Origin: Acetobacter okinawensis
GTDB taxonomy: Bacteria; Pseudomonadota; Alphaproteobacteria; Acetobacterales; Acetobacteraceae
Reading direction: 5' to 3'
Length of the DNA stretch: 64,000 bases
Assembly (NCBI RefSeq): GCF_002153655.1
Contig: NZ_JOPJ01000006.1
Span: 1-64,000 of the forward strand
Made by a program: the position numbers and the translations under genes. Each line of letters opens with the position of its first letter. Position 1 is the stretch's first letter. This document shows, piece after piece, positions 1-64,000 of the stretch. The notes under the pieces were generated by a model. The model was not told the origin of the DNA. It saw nothing but the letters and a program-made list of their open reading frames with translations, and made no database searches.

Positions 1-959
1 GGGGGGGGGGCAGTGGCTGGGATGATGACCCGGTGCAACGGGCTGGCCGCGTTATGCTGGCGTTTGGCCTGCTGCTTATGGTGCTGGAAAACGGCATTCA
101 GCCAGACCGCCTGCTCCGCAGCCTGCCACATGTGTGTACTGCGCTGGCGGGGCTTGCCTGCGTTGCCCCCGAGCCTGCGGTGGGGCTGGGTATTCTGGAA
201 CTGGCACTGGCGTGGGGTGTTTTTGTTTTCACCCGCCCTGCCGGGCAGGCCAAAACCGGGTGGGGGCTGATCCGCACCGGCTCGGTGGGGACGGTGCTTG
301 TGCTCTCCGGTCTGTTGTTGCCGCAGGGGAGCGTTGTGTCGGGCCTGATGATGGCCTGCGGCCTTGTCATTTTAACCGGGCTGGCCCCGTTTGGTCAGTT
401 CTGGCGTGATGAGAACGATAGCTTTCTGTTCCTCCCCTTTGCGGGTGCGTCCATTCTGCTGGCCATGCGTTTGCGCGGGCATGGCGGTATGGCGTTTGAA
501 ATGGCTTTGGTGGCGGCGGGGCTTGTCTCGGTCTGGCTAACGGCCTGCGCAGGCCGCTCGCGCGACAGACAAAGGCTGTTCCGTACCTTTCCATCAGCGC
601 TGGCGCTTATGGCGGTGGGGGTGGAGGCGGATGTTGCGGCTCTGCTGTTCCTGTGCGGGTGGTGTCTGGCCGGGGGGAACCGTAGCGGGCGTGGCTGGGC
701 GATAAATGTTCTGGCGTGCTTCCCCCCCGGTGCGCCGTTTGTGGGGTGCCTGCTTCTGCTTTCCGTCATGACCGACTGGTCGTGGTCTGTGGCGGTGCTG
801 ACCGTATGCGGCATTTTGGCCGCCGTGCTGCGCGCCGTACCTGACCGCGAGGCGGCGCGCCTGTTCTGGCCGGAGGATACAGCCGGGCGTGTGGCATGCT
901 CTGTTCTTACGGTCATGGGTTTTCTGGTGCCGCTGGCCATGATGCTCGGAGCGTTCTGA
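1..959 (+). CDS. Hydrogenase-4/complex-I-like membrane subunit, 5' truncated by window edge
   Basis: The frame is open from the first bases to the TGA at 957-959, so this is the 3' part of a longer gene; a GTG at 33 could serve as a start but need not. The product is very hydrophobic, with many predicted membrane helices. Two short segments, TGLAPFGQFW and FPPGAPFVG, resemble the proline-rich loop of antiporter-like subunits (NuoM/NuoN/HyfF). The next two genes are NuoCD/HyfG-like and NuoB/HyfI-like, so a HyfF- or HyfE-type subunit of an ion-translocating membrane complex is expected by position. The stop overlaps the next start (TGATG-type), implying translational coupling. The window opens with a run of at least ten G inside this frame. 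Family assignment leans on context; exact subunit uncertain. Confidence 0.6.
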   Translation, partial: GGGSGWDDDPVQRAGRVMLAFGLLLMVLENGIQPDRLLRSLPHVCTALAGLACVAPEPAVGLGILELALAWGVFVFTRPAGQAKTGWGLIRTGSVGTVLVLSGLLLPQGSVVSGLMMACGLVILTGLAPFGQFWRDENDSFLFLPFAGASILLAMRLRGHGGMAFEMALVAAGLVSVWLTACAGRSRDRQRLFRTFPSALALMAVGVEADVAALLFLCGWCLAGGNRSGRGWAINVLACFPPGAPFVGCLLLLSVMTDWSWSVAVLTVCGILAAVLRAVPDREAARLFWPEDTAGRVACSVLTVMGFLVPLAMMLGAF

Positions 960-2455
960 TGGATGTTGTCGCCCATATTCAGGCTGGGGAGCAGACGGAC
1001 ACGCCATGGCGCTTCCGGCTGGATGAACTGGCCTGGCGGGACATGGTGGATCTGCTCAGGCATGATGATCTGCCCTTTGTCGGCCTGTGGTGCGATGGGG
1101 TGGACGTGCATGCCCTGTTCCTCCCCGATGGCTACCCGCTTGCCGCCACACTGGCGCTGGAGGGCGGGCGCTACCCGGCTCTCTCCCCTGCACGGGTTGC
1201 CTCCAGCCTGTATGAGCGTACGATTTACGACCTGTATGGCGCAGAGGCCATGTGGGCGGTGGATGTACGCCCCCTGCTAGACCATGACGTCTGGTCCGCA
1301 ACCGCCCCTTTGTCCGCGGCCCCCGGGCGCGGCGGGCAACACAAGGGGCTTGTGAGCTTCCAGCCATCCGATGCCATGAGTGCCGCCAAGGGCCGGGTCG
1401 ATGGGCGCGGACCGGCCACGGGTGGTCTGGCTCCGCCGTTTTATACGCGGCTCGTTCTGTCCGGCTCTTTAGTCGCCTGTGGTGAAACACAGACGGGGTA
1501 TGCCCATCGTGGGGTTGCCGCACGTGCGCGCCATGCGCGGGTGGAGGATGTCTGCCGCCTGAGTGCTCGCGTTGCGGCTGGGTGTTCGGTTGCCCATCAG
1601 GTCGCCTTCTGTCTGGCGGTGGAAAATGCCTGTGGTCAGAGTGTGGGGGCCGAAATTGCATTGCTCAGGGTCGCTCTGCTGGAAATGGAGCGCCTGTTCC
1701 AGCATCTTTACACGCTTGCAGCACTGGCGCGGCTGGCGGGGGCGCATCTTGTGGCGTCGCACTGCATGGCCCTGCGTGAAAAACTGGTGGCCGAGGCAGC
1801 ACCCGTAACCGGGTCGCGGTTGTTGATGGATGTGTGCATACCCGGCGGTCTGTCCGTGCGGGAGACGGCGCAGATGGCGCAGCTCTGCACACAACTGTAC
1901 GAGATAGGGCAGCAGGCCTACCCCCAACTGGTGCTGTTATGGCGCGAATACCCCGGTCTTTCCGCGTTGCTGGCTGGGGTGGGGCAGGTGCAGGCCGATG
2001 ATCTGGAACGTATAGGACTTGATGGGCCCGTTGCCCGCGCCGCAGGGTGGGATTGCGATGGCAGGCGCATTATGCCCGCATATGACGGGCTGTGGCGCTA
2101 CACATCGGGCAGGCAGGGCGGTACGGCGGAAGACCGCGCGCTCCTTCTGCTGGACGAGGTGGAGGAAAGCCTGCGGATACTCGATCTGGCGTCCGCCCGT
2201 ATTGGCCTTGCACCTGCGGCCAATCATACCCTGTCCGTGCAGGATGGGGAGGGCACAGGTCTGGTAGAGGGGCCATGGGGCGGGGTGCTGTACTGGGTAC
2301 GTCTGGCGCATGGTCGTGTGGCAGAAGCATTCTGCCGCAAACCCGAAACCGCCGCCCTGCTGGTGTTTGAGCAGGTATTGCCCACCCATGCGGCAGAAGA
2401 TGTAGAGCTACTGGCGTGCTCACTGGGTGTGAATGCAGCAGCGCTGGATGGCTAG
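959..2455 (+). CDS. NuoCD/HyfG-like large subunit lacking [NiFe] ligand cysteines (Ehr-type)
   Basis: 498 residues from the ATG at 959, chosen because it overlaps the upstream stop. Residues about 1-110 resemble the NuoC/30-kDa domain and the remainder NuoD/HycE. The motif that in HycE reads RVCGICGYAH is here RVAAGCSVAH (204-213), so the first cysteine is alanine and only C209 remains. The C-terminal stretch DVELLACSLG aligns with the NuoD-type end rather than with the DPCxxC motif of hydrogenases; both C-terminal cysteines are absent. Enzymes with this pattern are known as energy-converting hydrogenase related (Ehr) complexes and are not expected to bind nickel-iron. It probably forms the peripheral arm with the NuoB-like subunit downstream. 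Substrate unknown. Confidence 0.8.
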   Translation: MDVVAHIQAGEQTDTPWRFRLDELAWRDMVDLLRHDDLPFVGLWCDGVDVHALFLPDGYPLAATLALEGGRYPALSPARVASSLYERTIYDLYGAEAMWAVDVRPLLDHDVWSATAPLSAAPGRGGQHKGLVSFQPSDAMSAAKGRVDGRGPATGGLAPPFYTRLVLSGSLVACGETQTGYAHRGVAARARHARVEDVCRLSARVAAGCSVAHQVAFCLAVENACGQSVGAEIALLRVALLEMERLFQHLYTLAALARLAGAHLVASHCMALREKLVAEAAPVTGSRLLMDVCIPGGLSVRETAQMAQLCTQLYEIGQQAYPQLVLLWREYPGLSALLAGVGQVQADDLERIGLDGPVARAAGWDCDGRRIMPAYDGLWRYTSGRQGGTAEDRALLLLDEVEESLRILDLASARIGLAPAANHTLSVQDGEGTGLVEGPWGGVLYWVRLAHGRVAEAFCRKPETAALLVFEQVLPTHAAEDVELLACSLGVNAAALDG

Positions 2456-2491
2456 GAGAATGCATATGAACACGCATACGGCAGAACTGCC

Positions 2492-2989
2492 ATGGGGCTG
2501 ATCCGTGCGGTTATGGATACGGCGTTCTGGAAGGGGAGGCAAAAACGCAAACCCCTTGGCCCACGTTGGCCTTTGCTGCTGTTTCATGTGGATACTGGGG
2601 GGTGTGGTGGCTGTGGCATGGAGCTACAGGCCATGACCTGCCTGCCGTATGATATGCAGGGTGCGGGCTTCGGGTTTGTAACGTCCCCGCGTTCCGCCGA
2701 TGTGCTGCTGGTTACAGGCCCGCTTACGCGCACCATGGCACCGGTTTTGCAGGCTGCGTGGGAGGCCATGCCAGACCCCAAAGGTCTTATCAGCGTTGGC
2801 GCCTGCGCACTTGATGGCGGACTGTTTGGCGAAAATTATGCCGTTATGGGGGGGCTGGAGCGCAGGGTTTCCGTCGATCTGGCCATTGCTGGCTGCCCGC
2901 CTAGCCCGCAGGAGATTCTCAACGGCCTTTGCGCTTTGCTGGGCAGTGCCGCACAGGGCAAGGAAAAGGAAACGCCCTCAAGGGGTTGA
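2492..2989 (+). CDS. NuoB/HyfI-like [4Fe-4S] small subunit
   Basis: 165 residues. The fold is that of complex I subunit NuoB/HycG/HyfI, which carries the cluster nearest the catalytic or quinone site. The cluster cysteines are visible: GGCGGCGMEL near residues 31-40, GACALDGG, and AGCPPSP, so the N2-type cluster site looks intact even though the partner large subunit has lost its nickel ligands. ATG 2492 is the only in-frame ATG after the upstream stop at 2455. The gene converges on pssA, and the two coding ends overlap by 12 bp inside an inverted repeat. It is the last visible gene of the complex; the remaining membrane subunits would lie left of the window. Confidence 0.82.
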   Translation: MGLIRAVMDTAFWKGRQKRKPLGPRWPLLLFHVDTGGCGGCGMELQAMTCLPYDMQGAGFGFVTSPRSADVLLVTGPLTRTMAPVLQAAWEAMPDPKGLISVGACALDGGLFGENYAVMGGLERRVSVDLAIAGCPPSPQEILNGLCALLGSAAQGKEKETPSRG

Positions 2990-2998
2990 GGGCGTTTC
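2969..2998. terminator. 12-bp perfect inverted repeat over two convergent stop codons
   Basis: Left arm GAAACGCCCTCA (2969-2980), loop AGGGGT, right arm TGAGGGCGTTTC (2987-2998). It contains the stop codons of both the HyfI-like gene and pssA. No long T tract follows on either strand, so it may be a weak bidirectional terminator or a 3'-end stabilising hairpin. Confidence 0.55.
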
Positions 2999-3898
2999 GG
3001 TATCATCCTTTTGCAAATCTTCCGCAGCTTTTTTCAGTTTAAGAAAGCTGCGGCGGCTGAGTGGCAGCAGCACCATGTAAATAATGCCTGCCGTAGCGAG
3101 CGCTGCCCATGGGTCCGCGACTAGAATAACGGCGTAAATGCCCGTTCCCAGCATAAGCGGCAGCACAAACTGCGCAGGGACCTTGAAGTTCTTGAACGAC
3201 CAGACCGGCAGGGTAGAGACCAGCAGCAACGCGGTACTGGTTAGTGTAAAGTCTGGCAGCCAGGGCAGGCGGGTCAGGTTATACAGCCAGTCGATGCCCA
3301 GCTTTTGCGCCTCCAGCCCCAGAAAAAGAGGGAAAAGAGCCAGACCCGCCCCTGCGGGGGCCGGTACGCCCGTAAAAAAGTTGCTGGCGTATTTGGGCTT
3401 GAGTTCCTCACCATCCAGATTGGCGTTAAAACGTGCCAGTCTGAGCGCCATGCACACCGTAAACAGCAGGCAGGGTAGGAACGCGTACCGATTGCTGTCC
3501 TTGATCGCCCAGAAATACAGCAAAAAGGAAGGGGCAACCCCAAAGCACAAAAAGTCTGAAAGACTGTCAAACTCCGCGCCAAACCGCGTAGCACCACGCA
3601 GCATGCGCGCAATGCGGCCATCCAGCCCGTCTATGAACGCGGAAATAAGCAGAGCCGCCGCTGCGGCCTGAAAGCGCCCTTCAATAGCAAAGCGCATGCC
3701 GGTCAGCCCCGCGCAAAGCCCCAGCATTGTCAGAATATTGGGGATCAGGCGGTTAAAGGAGGGGCCACGGCTCTTGTTGCGCACACGCCGCTTGCGGCGG
3801 CGTGGGGGCTGCTGGGCGTCTTTGGTCTGCGGCGGAGGGGATATGGGGGCAGGGAGTGTCACGGTCTTATCAGAGACGGGCCATAACGGTTTCACCAC
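2978..3898 (-). CDS. pssA: CDP-diacylglycerol-serine O-phosphatidyltransferase
   Basis: Makes phosphatidylserine from CDP-diacylglycerol and serine, the precursor of phosphatidylethanolamine. The CDP-alcohol phosphotransferase signature DGxxAR-x8-G-x3-D-x3-D is complete (D90/D93, R98, G107, D111, D115), followed by multiple hydrophobic helices typical of the type II membrane enzyme. The first about 45 residues are a proline- and arginine-rich cytoplasmic extension. It starts inside the 3' end of psd (29-bp overlap), so the pair is almost certainly one transcript with psd first; the two products act consecutively. 306 residues, somewhat longer than compact family members because of the N-terminal tail. 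Confidence 0.93.
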   Translation of the reverse strand: MVKPLWPVSDKTVTLPAPISPPPQTKDAQQPPRRRKRRVRNKSRGPSFNRLIPNILTMLGLCAGLTGMRFAIEGRFQAAAAALLISAFIDGLDGRIARMLRGATRFGAEFDSLSDFLCFGVAPSFLLYFWAIKDSNRYAFLPCLLFTVCMALRLARFNANLDGEELKPKYASNFFTGVPAPAGAGLALFPLFLGLEAQKLGIDWLYNLTRLPWLPDFTLTSTALLLVSTLPVWSFKNFKVPAQFVLPLMLGTGIYAVILVADPWAALATAGIIYMVLLPLSRRSFLKLKKAAEDLQKDDTETPSTP

Positions 3899-54351: not shown

Positions 54352-54506
54352 GGAATATTTCAGTTTTGTGACATGATAGCGATTTGACGCCTTGGAACAT
54401 TTCGGCGCTACGGTGTTTAAGATATGCTGAATATGTTCGGTTTTGTGGGCCACACGTGGTCCCGCAGCACGGGCATGTTGATGAGCAGGAAAGGGAGCGC
54501 AGGCAA

Positions 54507-56792
54507 GTGGCGGTACAGGACAAAAAAAAGGCAACCCCCGTCAGTCGCGCACGTGCGCCAGCCAAACGCGCACCCTCCCGTACCAGAACGTCCTCCGCTG
54601 CCCGTGCCAAAAAAGTGGTCGAGCAGGCTGTTACGCTGCAAACGCCTTCGCGCTTCATCAACCGCGAACTGTCATGGCTCGACTTTAACCAGCGCGTAGT
54701 GGAGGAGGCGGACAATGCCCGCAACCCGCTGCTGGAGCGGCTGCGTTTTCTGTCCATCAGCGCAAGTAATCTGGACGAGTTCTATTCCGTGCGGGTGGCA
54801 GGCCTTGTCGGGCAGATACGGGAGGGGCTGACCGCCATTTCCCCCGATGGGCGCACCCCGGCCCAGCAGTTGGAGGCCGTGCGTGAGCGTTGCGCCAGTC
54901 TGCTGCGTGAGCAGCAGCGCATATGGGTGGAACTGCGTGGGCTACTGGCGCAGTCCCACGTCACACTGTGCGAGACGCAGGACCTGGACGATACGGACCG
55001 TGAGTGGCTGGAAACATGCTTCATGGACCGCATTTTCCCAGTGCTGACCCCCCTTGCGGTAGACCCTGCACACCCGCTCCCCTTTATCCCCAACATGGGG
55101 CTGGCTCTGGGCTTGCGGCTTTTGTACGAAGGTACGGGCCTGTTCGCCATGAATGCGCTTATCCTGCTGCCAGCGCAGGTTGAGCGTTTTATCCGCCTGC
55201 CGTCATCAGGCGTGCAGGTTGCGGGAGAGCCCGCGCGTGTGCGTTTTATCCGTCTGGAAGACCTGATCTCCCTCTTTATTGACCGGCTCTTTGCAGGGCT
55301 TGTTGTGGGCGAGAGCGGCGTGCTGCGCGTTGTGCGCGATACGGACGTGGAATTTGAGGATGAGGCAGAAGACCTTGTCCGCTCGTATGAGAGCGCGCTC
55401 AAGCGCCGCCGCCGCGGGGTGGTGATCCATCTGGACATGGAAAAGCGCGTGCCTGCCGAGTTGGCGGACGCCATTGCCTCCGACCTTGACCTGCCTGCGG
55501 ACGAAATTGCCGTGCACGCAGGCATGATTGGTGTGGCCGACCTGAAGCAGATGATTGTGGATGACAGGCAGGACCTGCTCTTCCCCCCCTACACACCGCG
55601 CTTTCCCGAGCGGATACTCGATTTTAACGGGGACTGCTTTGCCGCTATCCGGGCAAAAGACCTGCTGGTCCACCATCCGTTTGAAAGTTTTGACGTGGTG
55701 GTCCAGTTCCTGCGGCAGGCCGCACTCGACCCCAACGTAATTGCCATCAAGCAGACGCTGTATCGCACATCGCGCGATTCCCCCATCGTCAAGGCGCTGA
55801 TCGAGGCGGCAGAGGCGGGCAAGTCCGTAACTGCCATGGTGGAACTGCGCGCACGCTTTGATGAGGAGGCCAATATCCGCCTTGCCCGTGCGCTGGAGGC
55901 TGCGGGCGTGCAGGTGGTGTTCGGCTTTGCGGACCTGAAGACCCACGCCAAGCTCAGCCTTGTGGTGCGCAGGGAGGGGGCGCAGGTCCGCTCCTACGCC
56001 CATTTTGGCACGGGCAATTACCACCCCATTACGGCGCGTATCTACACCGATCTGTCGTTCTTTACGTGCAACCCGGCCCTTGCACGGGATTCTGCGCGCC
56101 TGTTCAACTACGTGACCGGCTACGCCATGCCCGCGCAGATGGAGGAGATCGCTTTCTCCCCCATTACCATCCGCAGCACGCTCAAAACGCTGATCGAGGA
56201 GGAGATTGCGCACGTCAAGGCAGGGCGTTCCGGCACGATCTGGCTTAAAATGAACGCGCTGGTGGACCCCGACCTGATTGACTGCCTGTACCGTGCATCC
56301 TGCGCCGGGGTTAAGATTGTGGGCGTCATACGCGGCATCTGCTGCCTGCGTCCCGGTGTTGCCGGGCTGTCGGAGAATATCCGCATCAAGTCTGTGGTCG
56401 GGCGTTTTCTGGAACATTCGCGGATCTTCGCGTTTGGCAACGGGCACCGCCTGCCCTCGCGCCATGCCAAGGTCTTTATTTCCTCCGCCGACTGGATGAC
56501 CCGCAACATGGACTGGCGGGTGGAAAGCATGGTGCCCATTACCAACCCCACCGTGCATGCGCAGGTGCTGGACCAGATCATGGTGTCCAACATGCGTGAT
56601 AACCTTCAGTCATGGATTTTGGAACAAAATGGCGTGTGGCGCAGGCTGAGTGCCGGTGCAAAGCCGTTTTCCTCCCATGAATGGTTCATGACCCATCCCT
56701 CTCTGTCCGGGCGGGGGTCCGCTGCGCATGAGAGCCTGTCCAGAGCGCCTGCATCCCTCTCTCAGGCCAAAGACCTGATGCTAGATGACTGA
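54507..56792 (+). CDS. ppk: Polyphosphate kinase 1
   Basis: 761 residues from GTG 54507, where AAGGGAG lies 9 nt upstream; an extension to 54384 has no family support. After a basic, low-complexity tail (about 5-45) come the N domain ([20 protein letters not shown]), the head, and the two C-terminal phospholipase-D-like domains with the phosphorylated histidine in HFGTGNYHP and the second set [21 protein letters not shown]. It builds polyphosphate from ATP; ppx follows 102 bp later and degrades it. Overlaps nothing, so likely own ribosome entry. Confidence 0.95.
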
Positions 56793-56894
56793 AAACGGGG
56801 TTTCTTTTTCCGGTATGTCGCGTATGTCTGTGCACTTTCAGACTGCCGGGCAGCATAATGGCCTGTGCGGGAACGGCTGGTAATGGAGACGGAC

Positions 56895-58373
56895 ATGCAG
56901 CGTCGTTCAGCGGTGGTTGACCTCGGGTCCAATTCGGTCCGTCTGGTTGTGTTCGAAGGTGTGTCGCGCAATCCGCTGCCCATTTTCAACGAAAAAGCCG
57001 TTCTGCGGCTGGGGCGTGGATTGACCACCACAGGCCGCCTGAATGAGGAGGGCGTGGGCATGGCCATGGAGGTGCTCAGCCGCTTCCATGCCATTGCGCG
57101 GGCCATGCAGGCTGACCCGTTTGAGGTGCTGGCCACGGCTGCGGTGCGGGATGCGACAAACGGCCCCGCATTTGTGGAAATGCTGCGCCAGAGCATGCCC
57201 GGTGTGCCGGTGCGTATTCTGTCCGGCAAGGAGGAGGCTGACCATTCCGCCATAGGTGTGATGTGCGGCATTCCCCGTGCAGAGGGTCTGGTGGCGGATG
57301 TGGGGGGTGGCTCGCTTGAGCTGATCCACATGACCGAAACCGGACGGCACGATGCCACAACCCTACCTTTGGGTATGATCCGTCTGGCTGACCGCAGCGA
57401 GGGTGATCTGGATGTGGCCAAGCTGCTGACCGATCAGGATATTGATAGCGTGGAATGGCTGTCACGGGTCAAGGGGCAGCCGCTGTATCTGGTTGGGGGG
57501 GCGTTCCGCGCCCTTGCACGTTTGCAGATTGCGCGTACGCAGTACCCGCTCAACATTGTGCATTATTATACGCTGGACGTGCAGGAAGCGCGCGAGATGA
57601 CCGGCTGGCTCCAGAACAGCTCCCGCCGGAGTCTGGAACGCCTGCCCGGTGCGCCACGCAAGCGGCTGGATGATATTCCCTTTGCCGCCGTGGTCCTGCG
57701 CAGGCTGATGAAAAAAATCCAGCCAAGCAAGATCGTGTTCTGCGTCGATGGCCTGCGCGAAGGGTGGTACATGATGAATGTTGCCCCCAGCTATCTGCCG
57801 CAGGACCCGATGGAAAGCGTTGCGCGCGATATGTGCGCGCGCTTTGGCCGCAGCAACACCCTGCCAGAAATCCTGTGGACGTGGACAGGGTGCATCAAAC
57901 CCGACGAAACGCCAGAGGAGCAGCACCTGCGCCGCATTGCCTGCTGGCTGTCTGACATAGGAAGTCACGATCACCCCGAATACAGGGCCGAGCAGACTTA
58001 CCTACGGATTTTGCGTGTTCAGGGAGCAGGGTTTGACCACCGCGCACGGGTCTGGCTGTCTTTGGCGCTTGCGGTCCGTTATTCGGTAGATATGAGCGCG
58101 CCAGCACTTATGCCCTCCTTTACCCTGCTGAGTGAGGCAGAGCGGCGTGATGCCACGGCCTGTGGTCTGGCCCTGCGTCTGGCCTATTCGCTCTCGGGCG
58201 GGGCCGGGAGCCTGCTGGAAGGCACATCCCTTGCGTGGGAAGGGCAGGAACTGGTGCTGACCCTGACCTCCGCCCGTGTGGCCGTAAAGGGCGAGAGCGT
58301 GCGGCGCGGGCTGGAACGCCTCGGCCAGACGCTTGGAGTGCAGACACGTTTTGAGGTGGAGCTGTCGGTCTGA
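56895..58373 (+). CDS. ppx: Exopolyphosphatase / pppGpp phosphatase family protein
   Basis: 492 residues from ATG 56895 (GGAG 6 nt upstream); ATG 56883 or GTG 56865 would add a few residues. ASKHA-fold phosphatase with VVDLGSNSVRLVVFEG, the catalytic glutamate region VLATAAVRDA, the GGGSLEL phosphate loop, and a C-terminal HD-like helical domain. Hydrolyses polyphosphate from the ends and in some species pppGpp. Downstream of ppk on the same strand. Confidence 0.92.
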   Translation: MQRRSAVVDLGSNSVRLVVFEGVSRNPLPIFNEKAVLRLGRGLTTTGRLNEEGVGMAMEVLSRFHAIARAMQADPFEVLATAAVRDATNGPAFVEMLRQSMPGVPVRILSGKEEADHSAIGVMCGIPRAEGLVADVGGGSLELIHMTETGRHDATTLPLGMIRLADRSEGDLDVAKLLTDQDIDSVEWLSRVKGQPLYLVGGAFRALARLQIARTQYPLNIVHYYTLDVQEAREMTGWLQNSSRRSLERLPGAPRKRLDDIPFAAVVLRRLMKKIQPSKIVFCVDGLREGWYMMNVAPSYLPQDPMESVARDMCARFGRSNTLPEILWTWTGCIKPDETPEEQHLRRIACWLSDIGSHDHPEYRAEQTYLRILRVQGAGFDHRARVWLSLALAVRYSVDMSAPALMPSFTLLSEAERRDATACGLALRLAYSLSGGAGSLLEGTSLAWEGQELVLTLTSARVAVKGESVRRGLERLGQTLGVQTRFEVELSV

Positions 58374-58545: not shown

Positions 58546-60867
58546 GTGTCTTCTGAAGAGATCATAGACCCGACAGTCCAGCATAATGCATCCGTTCGGC
58601 GGGTGCTGCTGCACATGGTCCTCCCGTTTGTCCTGATTATGATGACAGTTGGCGCCATTGTGTGGGTCGGCATCAACTCGTATCGCACGACCAGCGAGGG
58701 CGTGTCGGTGCTGACGCGTGAACTCATGGAGGCAACGCAGCAGTACATCGGGCAGGAAGTGGGGGATTATATTGCCCCCTCCGCCGCAGGGAACCTGATT
58801 GCTGGCGGCATGATCGAGCATGCTCCCCCCCTTGTGTCAGACAAGGTGTTTTACTCCTACGGCAGCGTCATGCTGCAGAAAATCCCGCAGCTGCAGTCTT
58901 TTTATCTGGCGGATGATCTGGGTAATTTTACGCTGATTACCCGTTCTGCCACCAAGGATGTGCAGGACCGCGTGCGGCTGGTTACGGGCGCGGATGGCAA
59001 AAAGTTTCTCCAGCATACGCTCTACAATGCTGCGGGGCAGGTCGTCGGGCATTATGATGCCCCGGCCAATGATTATGACCCCCGGACCCGGCCGTGGTAC
59101 AAAAACACGGCAAACAAAGATACCATCCAGTGGACGCAGCCTTATCTGTTTCCGTCTGACAAGCAGTTTGTCATGACCAGTTCGCTCCGCTTCAAGCGGG
59201 ACGATGGGCATGAAATGGTTTTTGCCACCAATATCTCGCTCAATGAACTGAGTGCGTTTTTGGACAAGATCAAGATCGGCAAAAATGGCAGCGCCATGAT
59301 TGTGGATGCAAATGGTCGGGTCATAGCTGGGCGCAATCTGATGCAGCATGCACAGGCCGCAGGCTGGGACCCGGACAAGATGGTGCTCGACCCCAAGGAT
59401 TACCCGGTTTTTGCCTTGGGTTATGACCACTACCGGGTACGTGGCTTTGGCCCCAAGCATGTGGAATGGGACGGAAAAACCTACATTGCCATGGCATCGG
59501 CCCTGCCGCGCTACTCGCAGGGCTGGATTTTGCTGATTGTTGCGCCAGAGAACGATTTTGGGAGTTTTGCGCACCAGAGCAGCCGGCAGAGTTTGCAGTT
59601 TGCAGGTATTGTCACGGTTTTCTCCCTTCTGCTGGGGGGGCTGTACCTGCGCCAGCTGCGCAGGACAGAGGCTGGCAACCGCAGGCTGTCCGTGCACCAG
59701 TCGCAGGTTGCGCAGGAAAGTGGTGCGCTACAGCAGGTTGCCGTAACTCCCCATCTGTTTGACCCGACAGCCGAACCCTTGGTGATTACGGAGCAACTGG
59801 CGCAGGTCACAGGTGCCCGCCGCGCCAGCCTATGGCGCTTTTTGCACGATGGTGCGGCCATGGTCTGTGATGATACCTATGACCGGACCCAGAACACCCA
59901 TTCCGGTGGGTTTGAAATGGGGCGGCAGGAACTGGGCAAGTTCTTTGATGCGGTGGAGGAGGGAAATTCCTTTTTTGTCTCCAACGCGGCAACGGATGAG
60001 CGGACCACCCGCTTTGAGCGGCTTGTGATGCGTGAAGTCAGCACGCATGCGCTTGCGGTTTACCCTGTGCACGGACCGCATGGTACGTTGGGCATGCTGG
60101 CCCTTGAAGAGCCAGTCATGCTGCCGCACCTGCTCTATTTTGTAGAGCTTATGGCCAGTATTGCTGGCACGCGCTTTGTAGCGCAGAGCACGCTGGAGGC
60201 GCAGCAAACTCCCGTGGTAGCGGGGGGCGGACTACCCGCACCCAATGCGCCCCCTGGACCAACCAAATCCGATAACCTGCTCATGCGCGCGGATGAAATG
60301 GCAGCGGTAACAGGGGCCAGCATTTACCCCTCCGTGGCTGTGCTTGTTGTCAGCTTTTCCGACCCTGTTGTGGAGGGGAACAAGGAGACCGCAACCCTTA
60401 TTGCCCTGATTAACCAGTTGGCCACACAGGTCCAGAGTGTGGCGCAGGAAGAGCAGTTGTTTGCGGTGGAAGTTGCCGGTCACCGCATGATCTGCATGGC
60501 GGGCTGCACAACGGAGCCCGACCCAACGGCCCTGTTCCGTCTGGCCAATGCGGCGCTCAAAATGCGCGAAACCTTTATGGGAGCACTGGCTGCGGCCGAT
60601 CTGGAGCCGGTGTTTACCATGGGTATGGATTTTGGCCCCGCATTTGGTGGCGCGGTGGGGCAGGCGCCTACGGTGTTCAACCTGTGGGGGCAGACTGTGT
60701 CCCTCGCGGAGTTGATGGCCGAGAGCGCCATAGACCCGGGCACCATTCAGGTGACGGAGCGGGTTTATGCCAGTTTGCGTGACCGGTATCTGTTCCGCAG
60801 TCGTGGCTCGTTCTTTGTGCCGCATCTGGGGCTTGGTCGCGCCTATACACTGGCAGCGCGCCGATGA
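58546..60867 (+). CDS. Membrane sensor: dCache-TM-GAF with degenerate class III cyclase domain
   Basis: 773 residues from GTG 58546. Membrane helix at about 20-43, periplasmic double Cache domain (about 50-335), second helix (about 348-368), GAF-like domain (about 405-550), and a C-terminal class III nucleotidyl cyclase fold (about 593-772). The Cache domain carries YxxxxRxWY exactly (Y177, R182, W184, Y185) and Y200, the amino-acid-binding pattern, with N229 where aspartate is usual. In the cyclase fold the first metal aspartate is S603, the KxxGD motif is EVAGH (E642, H646), the DxxGxxVN motif reads NLWGQTVS (N712, S719) and the transition-state arginine is L723. Catalysis therefore seems lost. 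Stop overlaps the MlaE-like start. Confidence 0.8.
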   Translation: MSSEEIIDPTVQHNASVRRVLLHMVLPFVLIMMTVGAIVWVGINSYRTTSEGVSVLTRELMEATQQYIGQEVGDYIAPSAAGNLIAGGMIEHAPPLVSDKVFYSYGSVMLQKIPQLQSFYLADDLGNFTLITRSATKDVQDRVRLVTGADGKKFLQHTLYNAAGQVVGHYDAPANDYDPRTRPWYKNTANKDTIQWTQPYLFPSDKQFVMTSSLRFKRDDGHEMVFATNISLNELSAFLDKIKIGKNGSAMIVDANGRVIAGRNLMQHAQAAGWDPDKMVLDPKDYPVFALGYDHYRVRGFGPKHVEWDGKTYIAMASALPRYSQGWILLIVAPENDFGSFAHQSSRQSLQFAGIVTVFSLLLGGLYLRQLRRTEAGNRRLSVHQSQVAQESGALQQVAVTPHLFDPTAEPLVITEQLAQVTGARRASLWRFLHDGAAMVCDDTYDRTQNTHSGGFEMGRQELGKFFDAVEEGNSFFVSNAATDERTTRFERLVMREVSTHALAVYPVHGPHGTLGMLALEEPVMLPHLLYFVELMASIAGTRFVAQSTLEAQQTPVVAGGGLPAPNAPPGPTKSDNLLMRADEMAAVTGASIYPSVAVLVVSFSDPVVEGNKETATLIALINQLATQVQSVAQEEQLFAVEVAGHRMICMAGCTTEPDPTALFRLANAALKMRETFMGALAAADLEPVFTMGMDFGPAFGGAVGQAPTVFNLWGQTVSLAELMAESAIDPGTIQVTERVYASLRDRYLFRSRGSFFVPHLGLGRAYTLAARR

Positions 60868-61766
60868 GTGAGGAAAACTCACAACCTACCCAGCAGTCCT
60901 CGGCCCCCCAGACCGACACAACACGTGACCCGGTTCTGGCTGGGCAGACGGGTGGCGGCAGGGTCTTTACGCCCATACAGTGGGCGCTGGGCAAAATGGC
61001 ATGGACCGGGCGGCTGACACGCAGGCAGGCCCGCTTTTTGCTGATTATGCTGGGTGCGTCATGGGGGGTGATTTTCGAGAGCTTTCGCGCCCATTCATGG
61101 CGCAGAACGGTGCGGTACGAATTTATCAGCACCATGAACGGTATTATCCGTGGCGGGCTGATCGCCACCATGTTTGCCGGTGTGCTGACCGGGGTGGCTG
61201 CTGTCTCGCAAGTTATTTACTGGCTGGGCCTGACTGGCCTTGCCACCATGACCGGCTCAATCCTGATCAATATTGTGGTGCGCGAAATTGCCCCCATTCT
61301 GGTGGGGATGCTGCTGCTGGGGCGCAATGGTATGCTCTCCACGACCGAGTTGGGGCTGTTGAGCATTGGGGGGGAAATCCGCTCCATGCAGGCTGTGGGC
61401 ATAGACCCGTTTTTGCTGCTGGTGCTCCCCCGTACTCTGGCCTTTACCGTGGCGGGGTTTACGCTGGGCATCCTGTTTTCATTCGCATCCCTTGTGACCG
61501 GTTATGTGATGAGCCGCATGTCCGGGGTTATCAATAATCCCGTCTGGGTTTTTCTGGATGACGTGGCAACGGCCATGTCCGGGACGGATTATATTATTAT
61601 TCCGCTCAAATTCATTACTGTCGGGTTTGTGGTGGGGCTTGGGGGATGCCTGACCGGACTGACCGCCACAAACGAGGATTCACTGCGCACACTCCTGCCT
61701 CGCGGTTTTTCCCGCGGAATGCTGATTGTGATGGTGGTGAGCGTTCTGTTCAGTCTGGACCTGTAA
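60864..61766 (+). CDS. mlaE: MlaE-family lipid transport permease
   Basis: 300 residues. The first 45 or so are a hydrophilic tail, then the MlaE fold with SFRAHSWRRTVRYEF-type interfacial helix, ILINIVVREIAPILVGMLLLGRNG, and ALGIDP-like AVGIDPFLLLVLPRTLAF, the family hallmark segments. MlaE permeases work with MlaF (ATPase), MlaB (STAS), MlaD (MCE) to move phospholipid or steroid-like substrates between inner and outer membranes. Begins within the sensor stop (ATGA); the ATPase-like gene starts 1 bp after its stop. No MlaB gene is present in the visible operon. Confidence 0.9.
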   Translation: MSEENSQPTQQSSAPQTDTTRDPVLAGQTGGGRVFTPIQWALGKMAWTGRLTRRQARFLLIMLGASWGVIFESFRAHSWRRTVRYEFISTMNGIIRGGLIATMFAGVLTGVAAVSQVIYWLGLTGLATMTGSILINIVVREIAPILVGMLLLGRNGMLSTTELGLLSIGGEIRSMQAVGIDPFLLLVLPRTLAFTVAGFTLGILFSFASLVTGYVMSRMSGVINNPVWVFLDDVATAMSGTDYIIIPLKFITVGFVVGLGGCLTGLTATNEDSLRTLLPRGFSRGMLIVMVVSVLFSLDL

Positions 61767-61767
61767 G

Positions 61768-62469
61768 ATGGATGTTTACACTTCCGGCCCACTGCTCGAA
61801 CTGAACAAGGCCATCCCCTCGTTTGATGAGAGCGGGTTGCCCCCTGTTCCATTCAGTATGAAGCTGATGCCCGGTGACTGTATGGTGGTGGAAACGCGCG
61901 ACGTCGGCCATGCCACCATGTTTGCGGACCTGTGCAGCGGTCTTGTGCCGCTGGATGATGGGGCCGTGCGGTTTATGGGGCTGGACTGGACGGACCTGAG
62001 GGACCGTGAACTGAATGCCCTGCGCGGGCGTATTGGTCGGGTTACACGCCGGGCAAGCTGGCCTGAGTTTGTTCCCATTCATCTTGCGATCGTGCTCCAG
62101 CAGCTACACCACACAACCCGCCCGATTGATGAGCTGGTGCAGGATGCTGCACATCTGGCGGAGCGCTTTGGTCTGCCCGGCCTGCCAACGGAAAACCCGA
62201 GTTTTTTGCCCGAGGATGACCTGCTGCGCGTAAGCTGCGTACGGGCTTTTCTGGGGCGGCCCCATTTATTACTGCTGGAAGACCCGATTGAGGGTGGTCC
62301 GGCGGAATTGAGCAATTCTTTTCTGGCTGCAATAACCGAGGCGCGCGACAGGGGTGCCGGGGTTATCTGGCTGGTAAGGAATAACGCAGTCTGGCAGGAA
62401 TATCGGCAGGGTATTACCGCAACCTGGCGGCTTGCAGATGATGGTCTTGTAGCAGTACGGATGGGATAA
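61768..62469 (+). CDS. MlaF-position ABC ATPase-like protein with degenerate ATP-binding motifs
   Basis: 233 residues, the length of MlaF, and placed where mlaF is expected between mlaE and mlaD. Read against the ABC fold: the Walker A loop is TRDVGHATM (43-51), so GKST becomes GHAT with His48 for the essential lysine; no Q-loop glutamine is evident after RIGRV; the signature LSGGQ is LPEDD (147-151); Walker B LLLLDE is LLLLED (167-172), with Asp and Glu exchanged; and the H-loop histidine is replaced in WLVRNN (201-206). The overall order of elements and the RVSCVRAFLGRPHLLLLEDP stretch still show ABC ancestry. It is likely a pseudo-ATPase or needs a separate motor. Confidence 0.78.
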   Translation: MDVYTSGPLLELNKAIPSFDESGLPPVPFSMKLMPGDCMVVETRDVGHATMFADLCSGLVPLDDGAVRFMGLDWTDLRDRELNALRGRIGRVTRRASWPEFVPIHLAIVLQQLHHTTRPIDELVQDAAHLAERFGLPGLPTENPSFLPEDDLLRVSCVRAFLGRPHLLLLEDPIEGGPAELSNSFLAAITEARDRGAGVIWLVRNNAVWQEYRQGITATWRLADDGLVAVRMG

Positions 62470-63419
62470 TGTTCCAACTCCGCTTACGACAGAAAGTAAA
62501 ACCACTCATTTCTCTGCGCTATGCGGATGAATGGGTCGGGTTTCTCGTGCTTCTGAGCATACTCATTTTTGGGGGCGCGGTTATCGAGGCTGGCGTGCTG
62601 CGTGACTGGCTAACCCCTCCGGCACGGTTGCGCGTGGTGCTGCCTGCATCGGGCGTTGGCGGGCTGACCGTAGGGGGCGATGTGCAGCTAATGGGAGCCC
62701 ACGCGGGGACCATTCGCAGCATCAAACTCAATCCGTCGGGGAATATGTACGCCATGGTCGATCTCGACCCGCAGGCAAAGCCCTTTATCCGGCGAGACAG
62801 CACAGCCCTTATCCGCAAACAGCTTATTGTGACCGGTGCATCCTATCTGGACCTCAGCCGTGGGCATGGTGACCCGATGGACTGGAGCTATGCTGTTATT
62901 TCGGCAACGCCAGCCCCCAACCCCGCAGACCAGATTACGGCAACCCTGAACAGTATTCAGGCCGAAATCATGCCTGCTCTGGCCAGTGCAAGGCACATGA
63001 TGGCGCAGTTGGATGGCACCATTACCGACATGCACGCGGGCAAGGGCACAATCGGGCAGTTGATGACCAATGACCAGCTTATCCGCCAGTCAGAAGCTAC
63101 GATTGCCTCCTTGGATGCTGTGATCGAACGGCTCAAGCCGATTGAAAAACAGGTATCGGGGATTATGGCCAAAACAGACGCGACCATGGGCAACCTCAAA
63201 TCCGCAACCAAGGACGTCAAGGATGCAACGCCGCATCTGCCTGCCATTGCCAGCAATGTGGAGGCCAGCACGGCGGACCTGCCAGCCATGCTGGCACAGG
63301 CCCAGACAACGCTGTACGGGTTACAGCAGTTGACTGACCAGTTGCGTGGCATGTGGCTGCTGGGCGGGCAGAAGGTCACACACCATAAACGACTGGCTCC
63401 CAGACAGGTGCGACCATGA
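62469..63419 (+). CDS. mlaD: MlaD-like MCE-domain protein
   Basis: 316 residues. One N-terminal membrane helix (about 22-42, VGFLVLLSILIFGGAVI), then an MCE domain (about 52-130) with GVGGLTVGGDVQLMGAHAGTI and the LIRKQLIVTGASYLDLS end, and a long helical C-terminus (about 150-290) that is rich in Ala, Thr and Gln, as in MCE proteins that form a periplasmic tube. It overlaps the upstream stop by 1 bp (TAATG) and the lipoprotein start by 4 bp. It would present the lipid from the permease to outer-membrane partners. Confidence 0.9.
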   Translation: MFQLRLRQKVKPLISLRYADEWVGFLVLLSILIFGGAVIEAGVLRDWLTPPARLRVVLPASGVGGLTVGGDVQLMGAHAGTIRSIKLNPSGNMYAMVDLDPQAKPFIRRDSTALIRKQLIVTGASYLDLSRGHGDPMDWSYAVISATPAPNPADQITATLNSIQAEIMPALASARHMMAQLDGTITDMHAGKGTIGQLMTNDQLIRQSEATIASLDAVIERLKPIEKQVSGIMAKTDATMGNLKSATKDVKDATPHLPAIASNVEASTADLPAMLAQAQTTLYGLQQLTDQLRGMWLLGGQKVTHHKRLAPRQVRP

Positions 63420-64000
63420 GACGGCTGAGACACATGCTGCTGCTGGCAACGCCGCTGGTGTTGGCCGGGTGCAGCGCAAGCCAGAGCAAACCCACGGCTC
63501 TTGATGATGCGGCATGGGACCAGGCCATGGCGGCAGGGCGGGATTCGTTTGAACTGGGGCGTTACACGGTTGCCGTGTCCCAGTATCGCAAGGCTGCCAA
63601 TCTGGCCCTCGTGCGTGATGACGGATCTGCTGTGGCCGAGGCAGGGTATGACCTTGCTGTGTCCCAACTGGCGGCCAATGCTCCAGCAGATGCACTGCAA
63701 ACAACGCAGGCAACCCGGCAGGCGGTGCAACTGCGTGGGGGAGGGGAGCAGTTCTCGCTTGATCTGGTGGAGGCTGCCAGCCACTACAGGCTTGGCCACT
63801 ATGGGCAGGCGTTACCTCTGGCAAGCCACGCCATGCTCTCGCCCGACACAGGGGTCGCGGCACGGGCGGCACTGGTTCTGGGCCTTGCTGCCGATGCGCA
63901 GGGTGATCAGGCGGGGTTACAGAGTGCGGCATCTTATCTGAGCACCCTCAAAGCACCACTGTCTGTGACCCAGCAGGCGGACAGAGCCGAAATTCAGGCC
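63416..64000 (+). CDS. TPR-like lipoprotein of the Mla-type operon, 3' truncated by window edge
   Basis: 195 codons visible, open to the window end. Signal peptide MRRLRHMLLLATPLVLA then lipobox LAGC (Cys19) and an alanine-rich helical mature part with repeated pairs such as RDSFELGRYTVAVSQYRKA and VEAASHYRLGHYGQALPLA, suggestive of tetratricopeptide helices. Overlaps mlaD by 4 bp, so it belongs to the same operon. In other MCE clusters this place is taken by an outer-membrane lipoprotein (for example the PqiC-type or ABC auxiliary lipoprotein), but the TPR character here is different. The stop codon and any downstream mlaC-like gene are outside the window. Confidence 0.75.
   Translation, partial: MRRLRHMLLLATPLVLAGCSASQSKPTALDDAAWDQAMAAGRDSFELGRYTVAVSQYRKAANLALVRDDGSAVAEAGYDLAVSQLAANAPADALQTTQATRQAVQLRGGGEQFSLDLVEAASHYRLGHYGQALPLASHAMLSPDTGVAARAALVLGLAADAQGDQAGLQSAASYLSTLKAPLSVTQQADRAEIQA

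Follow-up and report, generated by a model that had tools for sequence, protein, structure and literature searches.

The 64,000-nucleotide stretch of DNA analysed here (the window) ends in a five-gene block that encodes a receptor-like protein, an MlaE-family permease, an ATP-binding cassette (ABC) protein, an MCE protein and a lipoprotein. The window lies on contig C107, part of a 2.7 Mb genome. In window numbering the block occupies positions 58546-64351, its last gene continuing beyond the window end (64000), and its ABC protein is 99% identical to that of Acetobacter okinawensis, the nearest named match. The five genes, with the evidence for each, are as follows:

58546..60867, + strand: receptor-like protein, 773 residues, GTG start (Pfam, PDB sequence matches, residue counts over 92 rows)
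60864..61766, + strand: MlaE-family permease, 300 residues (Pfam PF02405 at 4.2e-33, PDB MlaE matches, alignment of 13 members)
61768..62469, + strand: ABC pseudo-ATPase in the MlaF position, 233 residues (motif counts, structure model, Foldseek)
62469..63419, + strand: MCE protein, 316 residues (Pfam MlaD at 3.1e-11, NCBIfam, PDB matches)
63416..64351, + strand, of which the window holds 63416..64000: tetratricopeptide repeat (TPR) lipoprotein, 311 residues in the genome (lipobox Cys19, TPR-fold model)

The receptor and MlaE genes overlap by 4 bp, a 1-bp gap separates the MlaE and ABC genes, the ABC and MCE genes overlap by 1 bp, and the MCE and lipoprotein genes overlap by 4 bp; an initial annotation had read these five genes as one block with the same junctions, and the coordinates agree. 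The next large open reading frame (ORF) past the lipoprotein gene lies on the opposite strand. Pfam matches above cut-off were dCache_1, GAF and Guanylate_cyc in the receptor, MlaE in the permease (115 bits for PF02405, cut-off 22.5) and MlaD in the MCE protein. None of the five proteins reached a curated NCBIfam cut-off, the permease scoring 76.6 against the 212.2 set for TIGR00056. The five proteins gave no match to STAS, the MlaB domain (Pfam, E up to 1), and no Pfam match to MlaA or MlaC.

The ABC protein has retained the fold of a nucleotide-binding domain (NBD), and its normal nucleotide site is gone. We aligned 103 rows, namely the window protein, members from 100 loci and two from loci outside Acetobacteraceae (taken to be the window's family), against the two MlaF proteins with intact motifs from the window's own genome; the rows were neither deduplicated nor made independent. 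The Walker A Lys column held Lys in 0/103 rows and Ala in 86, the Walker B Asp column held Glu in 101, the catalytic Glu was kept in 4, and the H-loop His was kept in 2, with a His one column on in 9. The Q-loop column held Arg in 54 rows, with Gln kept in some distant ones (e.g. L145). A pattern search for GxxxxGK[ST], LSGG and SGG found none of them in any of 100 members. Sequencing error as the cause of the Walker A loss was rejected because the loss recurs in all 103 rows; no version with an intact Walker A occurred among these aligned members, and no search aimed at an ancestral operon with an intact Walker A was made.

Many positions are strongly conserved. We observed that 33 were identical in at least 98 of the 103 rows, and that Gly36, Gly58, Gly65, Arg86, Gly90, His115, Gly138 and Arg159 were invariant in all of them. 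Asp151 and Trp201 were each present in 100 rows, at columns where both canonical MlaF proteins carry other residues; the second and third Walker A columns held Arg in 85 and Asp in 82 rows, and Glu171 was kept in 101. The AlphaFold2 model of the protein had a mean predicted local distance difference test (pLDDT) score of 91.6, and Foldseek matched it to the NBDs of FtsE, BceA, MacB, YbbA, LolD and E. coli MlaF (6xgz; rank 6, TM 0.79). Against Pfam ABC_tran the window protein scored 12 bits, under the 25-bit cut-off, and it was not among the 16 of 33 family members that matched this model (E up to 0.01). It is also without the C-terminal tail of canonical MlaF.

Could this protein descend from MlaF? 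Its best NCBIfam match was FtsE (3.2e-9), and in a PDB profile search Rv1281c, PhnL and FtsE outranked the Mla ATPase chains 7d06 and 6z5u. We leave an MlaF origin open because these sequence matches favour FtsE-type models, and we call the protein MlaF-like because of its operon position, not its sequence.

The family to which the ABC protein belongs is widespread in acetic acid bacteria. It was found in 25 of 25 genomes of the genus (own genome included), at 52% identity or more and beside MlaE and MCE genes, and in 137/397 genomes and 38/102 genera of the window's family (same sample, two profiles). The order, class and phylum samples, which overlap with the family sample and with one another, gave 153/299, 6/385 and 6/398 genomes, respectively. 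In the class search, which scored at most seven candidates per genome, six members had E values of at most 6e-76, and after them the scores fell to 4e-27; judged by score, the match at 4e-27 and those beyond it would be ordinary ABC proteins, and by the same sequence scores the ABC family is discrete. Among the named carriers, drawn from 80 of the 99 loci that were confirmed, are Acetobacter, Gluconacetobacter, Komagataeibacter, Novacetimonas, Gluconobacter, Ameyamaea, Bombella and Parasaccharibacter.

Gene order was examined at 100 loci (80 named and 20 distant), with ORFs called with CTG starts allowed, as for the loci outside the family, so that some genes are over-extended. By ORF start, the order receptor-MlaE-ABC-MCE-lipoprotein was kept in 87 of the 100 loci, in many genera; the initial annotation had proposed this very check within Acetobacteraceae. 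Among the others, the receptor match was absent at five loci of the distant genus g111 (L130, L135, L136, L138, L141), L082 and L114 lie on short contigs, and at L070 and L142 the lipoprotein was missing near a contig end. The genes were ordered differently at L076, L139, L147 and also L138, which we think is due only to over-extended ORF starts. At L146 (genome G426), the receptor, MlaE and pseudo-ABC genes were found, and the scripted scan gave no MCE or lipoprotein match. Outside Acetobacteraceae, two genomes (G762 and G447) held all five genes in order. The complete blocks outside the family (L170, L171) come from two further families within the class, which is in line with a joint transfer of the five genes; three further genomes of the same family as that of L171 (G574, G671, G747) gave weak ABC matches only.

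The second pseudoenzyme is the receptor, in which Pfam placed a dCache domain (158-331), a GAF domain (414-541) and a class III cyclase domain (613-759), with two hydrophobic stretches read by eye. The homology of the cyclase domain is clear from PF00211 (8e-16) and from a PDB adenylate cyclase (1.3e-13). Residues were counted over 92 rows, after two loci with ORFs of at most 650 residues (L057, L126) had been dropped and with no receptor match at 7 of the 100 loci. We take the catalytic residues to be two metal Asp, a substrate Asp, and a transition-state Asn and Arg. The first metal position (placed by eye) held Ser or Thr in 71 of the 92 rows, the second metal Asp was replaced by His in 65 rows and by Asn in 16 and survived in 4, and the substrate Asp column held Asn in 91; the transition-state Asn was kept in 12 rows and the Arg in 2. 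Judged by these columns, the cyclase domain is degenerate, and the initial annotation, which had seen two pseudoenzymes in the block, is thus upheld by the loss of motif residues in both families. Three residues past the lost first metal position, Asp606 (window 60361-60363) is kept in 86/92 rows; a repurposed site is possible there, and the cyclase domain may have some residual metal binding.

What might the receptor sense? Its dCache domain in the window, aligned to PctA by eye, keeps Tyr177, Arg182, Trp184, Tyr185 and Tyr200, five of the six residues of the amino-acid motif, whose Arg is R126 in PctA. At the sixth position Asn229 replaces Asp, and this column held Asn in 80 and Asp in 11 of the 92 rows. 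PMC11245519 lists Y121, W128, Y129, Y144 and D173 of PctA in the dCache_1AA motif and describes the Asp as critical. Since Asn stands at this critical position, we do not predict an amino-acid ligand for the receptor, and the extracellular amino-acid-like ligand suggested in the initial annotation is not upheld. Furthermore, four of the g111 loci (L130, L136, L138, L141) gave no receptor match in the fetched stretch, where the upstream ORFs seen were unrelated, whereas L135 begins too near a contig end for the presence of the receptor to be judged. The receptor is consequently an accessory to a four-gene core.

The nearest described system that we found is Mpc (Mla-Pqi chimeric, MpcEFDA) of Brucella abortus, whose single operon likewise combines an MlaE-type permease, an NBD gene, a long MCE protein and a lipoprotein of the outer membrane (PMC12436622). 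What sets the block apart is its dead NBD, the lack of a STAS match, a TPR rather than a PqiC-like lipoprotein, and a leading receptor gene; no STAS-MlaE fusion, active MpcF or PqiC-like lipoprotein, as in Mpc, was found in the block.

Of the 316 residues of the MCE protein, positions 55-132 form its only MCE domain, which is followed by roughly 180 more. It matched NCBIfam Mtu_fam_mce at 3.5e-12, below cut-off, and its PDB sequence matches were 13hr_I (Mce/MlaD-domain protein, 1.5e-4) and 8fed_B (virulence factor Mce family protein, 0.0038). Taken from sequence only, its length and matches fit the long MCE proteins, as in Mpc; PMC7790496 characterises MlaD by the lack of a long C-terminal helical region, whereas this protein has a long C-terminal region. 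In the lipoprotein, the lipobox Cys at residue 19 was invariant in 22 of 22 rows. Its model (mean pLDDT 83.7) shows a superhelix of helical repeats whose C-terminal tail is poorly modelled, and it matched TPR proteins, at best with E 2.4e-4. The window protein gave weak TPR matches in Pfam, and the 22 lipoproteins gave TPR-type matches only, plus two stray ones. BamD was considered as the lipoprotein family and rejected as weak and below cut-off (3.2e-4).

The genome also encodes other lipid systems. On C118, a canonical MlaE lies beside an MlaF with intact motifs. On C62 (positions 1-3436; genome G000, locus L013), reading by eye revealed a four-gene Mpc-like operon whose MlaE runs off the contig start; this MlaE has an N-terminal extension of STAS length and is accompanied by an MlaF with intact motifs, a 334-residue MCE protein and a PqiC-like lipoprotein of the LYTLG type. 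C62 carries, in addition, a 595-residue frame that resembles PqiB in having three MCE matches; genes with one MCE domain occur on C65 and C107. The statement of the initial annotation that no normal MlaF is visible therefore holds for the block and fails for the genome, in which two intact-motif genes lie outside the window. Because there are two intact mlaE-mlaF pairs elsewhere, the five-gene block is an extra system. The MlaE of the block is far from the other two, with best local matches of 31% over 65 and 22% over 81 residues.

Could the block simply be the decaying leftovers of an Mpc-like operon? It does hold two pseudoenzymes, the ABC matches are fragmented in 2 of the 137 genomes (G165 and G362), and genes are shortened or gapped at L047, L057, L088 and L126. 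On the other hand, the ratios of nonsynonymous to synonymous substitution rates (dN/dS; Nei-Gojobori, against nine Acetobacter loci, with dS above 1 in many more distant pairs) argue for purifying selection. They were 0.025-0.160 for the ABC gene and 0.031-0.213 for the MlaE gene, the ABC value lying below that of MlaE in six comparisons and above it in three. The MCE gene gave 0.008-0.091, the lowest of the genes in 9/9 comparisons, and the lipoprotein gene 0.066-0.265, the highest or level in 8/9. The near-invariant ABC residues, the discrete family in 137/397 genomes, the retention of the block in genomes of 1.5-2.2 Mb, six of which show no Mpc-type match, and the occurrence of all five genes together outside Acetobacteraceae also speak against decay. 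We rejected it on selection, distribution and near-invariant residues, and regard it as extremely unlikely. The initial annotation had held that a canonical mlaF accompanied by decay in relatives would count against its reading; such an mlaF is present elsewhere in the genome, whereas the relatives are under purifying selection and 2 of 137 are fragmented.

In G165 (L202, L203), all block genes but that of the lipoprotein show gaps or frame changes, and the other MlaE of this genome is interrupted too, being in two pieces; in G362 (L204), there are frame changes in four block genes. These broken genes may reflect assembly errors or decay. A TGA was flagged inside the ABC match in 11 of the 137 genomes (ten of genus g48, plus G378), and in the one that was compared by coordinates (G072, L149) it is the gene's own terminal stop.

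How would such a system work? On balance, we lean towards the reading that the block encodes an extra MCE lipid conduit of the needle type, in which the NBD serves as a scaffold or gate and does not hydrolyse ATP. The data establish which genes are present and in what order, the lost motifs, the fold, the selection and the distribution; we infer the assembly and stoichiometry, the lipid cargo, the absence of ATP use by the complex, its gating and its direction. The inner-membrane part would be an MlaE homodimer, and the periplasmic part an MCE hexamer extending into a long helical needle, like that of Mpc and Mce1, for which the TPR lipoprotein would serve as the outer-membrane dock in place of PqiC. 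Normal binding and hydrolysis of ATP would both be lost in the pseudo-NBD, whose role would instead be to hold MlaE at its cytoplasmic side, as a scaffold or allosteric plug. Lipid would then follow its own gradient or be moved by energy from outside the pseudo-NBD, and the receptor with its dead cyclase domain, co-encoded in most of the lineages seen, may set the gate. In the MlaFEDB complex, the composition is MlaF2E2D6B2, and an MlaE coupling helix between TM2 and TM3 contacts MlaF (PMC7790496). The block MlaE has a stretch aligned to the coupling-helix region of canonical MlaE, the helix being placed by eye.

Because MlaE comes from one gene and is encoded together with an NBD-fold protein that is strongly conserved, the simplest complex would carry the pseudo-NBD on each half and lack an ATPase; by analogy, both NBD places would thus most simply be filled by the pseudo-NBD. 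PqiA and LetA are inner-membrane proteins of MCE systems that have no ATPase domain (PMC12436622), and this precedent, together with the simplest complex, makes a gated or passive conduit our first choice. Something other than an ATPase of its own probably powers or gates the block. A bolder form of the proposal, in which ATP has been wholly given up, both NBD places hold pseudo-ATPases, and the receptor acts as the gate in most lineages so that an outside signal switches lipid flow, is tentative and rather doubtful.

Several points weigh against the conduit. Its function is read from homology; the loss of motifs in the ABC protein is not proof that all nucleotide binding is lost; and the pseudo-NBD is, by sequence, not closest to MlaF and appears to fit FtsE better, so that descent from MlaF is unproven. 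The four g111 loci without a receptor match keep the other four genes, and gating by the receptor cannot therefore be a general requirement. Finally, a set of 42 small genomes (1.5-2.7 Mb), hand-picked among the carriers of the ABC protein and with system types assigned by score, held another MlaE match in 42/42 cases, MlaF itself not being searched there. A carrier genome without a second MlaE was sought and none was among the 42, so that a borrowed ATPase was never ruled out by absence. In the same set, G069, G101, G110, G141, G288 and G395, among others, gave no Mpc-type match by score and kept the block.

Such a borrowed ATPase, second in our ranking and clearly less probable than the conduit, would be a canonical MlaF encoded elsewhere that drives the permease, with the pseudo-NBD as the regulatory partner in a mixed NBD dimer. 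There is a parallel in MceG, which is shared among the mycobacterial Mce systems. The intact MlaF genes on C118 and C62 and the additional MlaE matches in all 42 small genomes would fit this explanation, and ABC exporters are known that form heterodimers in which one site is degenerate (PMC7756269). However, with a single permease gene both NBD places should be equivalent, the block MlaE is distant from the other two, and the pseudo-NBD has no canonical C-terminal tail. Third in rank, and improbable in our view, is a complex that is no longer a transporter and forms a membrane-spanning tether or signalling device, with MlaE, the pseudo-NBD and the receptor as the sensor and the MCE protein and lipoprotein as periplasmic links. 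Two pseudoenzymes next to a dCache and GAF receptor would suit such a role, as would the protein-binding fold of the TPR lipoprotein, whereas the MCE gene is the most constrained in every comparison and four loci retain the transporter half without a receptor match. Very unlikely, lastly, is non-standard catalysis, in which the reshaped site would cycle with another ligand, such as a lipid head group, a metabolite or a nucleotide bound in an altered pose. The new conserved residues at the old site (the Arg and Asp of Walker A, Asp151, Glu171 and Trp201) invite this idea; their conservation may, however, be structural, and the P-loop pattern is missing from all 100 members. We continue to prefer the gated or passive conduit over these alternatives.

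The conduit reading can be set beside other known systems. Like the block, the mycobacterial Mce1 and Mce4 systems combine long MCE proteins with permeases (YrbE), and they set a precedent for an ATPase encoded elsewhere; their operons differ in having six different MCE proteins and no known pseudo-NBD gene. PqiA and LetA are not MlaE proteins, and no NBD-fold protein is known to be involved there. In ABC exporters with a degenerate site, Walker A and one or more working sites are generally retained, whereas the NBD of the block has lost the P-loop itself. What the block shares with these exporters is the loss of catalysis in an NBD (PMC7756269), and PqiABC and LetAB are a precedent for MCE systems without an ATPase domain in the inner-membrane protein (PMC12436622). 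With Mla (MlaFEDB; PMC7790496) it shares the MlaE and MCE families and an NBD model that matches E. coli MlaF, and it differs by the absence of ATPase motifs, of an MlaB, MlaA or MlaC match, and by its long MCE tail. The initial annotation knew of no described system of this make-up, and our literature search found no description of the five-gene operon either, which is weak evidence as subscription journals lay mostly outside its coverage; the operon is not mentioned in the available portions of PMC10665443 and PMC13209655.

The energy source and the lipid direction of MCE systems are still debated. A naturally ATPase-dead MlaE/MCE system, retained in many acetic acid bacterial genera alongside MlaF genes with intact motifs, makes it possible to ask directly which role the NBD has besides hydrolysis and whether lipid can flow without hydrolysis. 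These bacteria live in acetic acid and ethanol, where control of envelope lipids should matter.

Directly upstream of the block, window positions 54384-58373 hold an ORF that, judged by eye, resembles polyphosphate kinase, together with a Ppx/GppA gene. A wider operon that includes ppk-ppx was considered and rejected: both genes were present in 25 of 102 loci only (short and cut loci counted), and the adjacency is therefore local.

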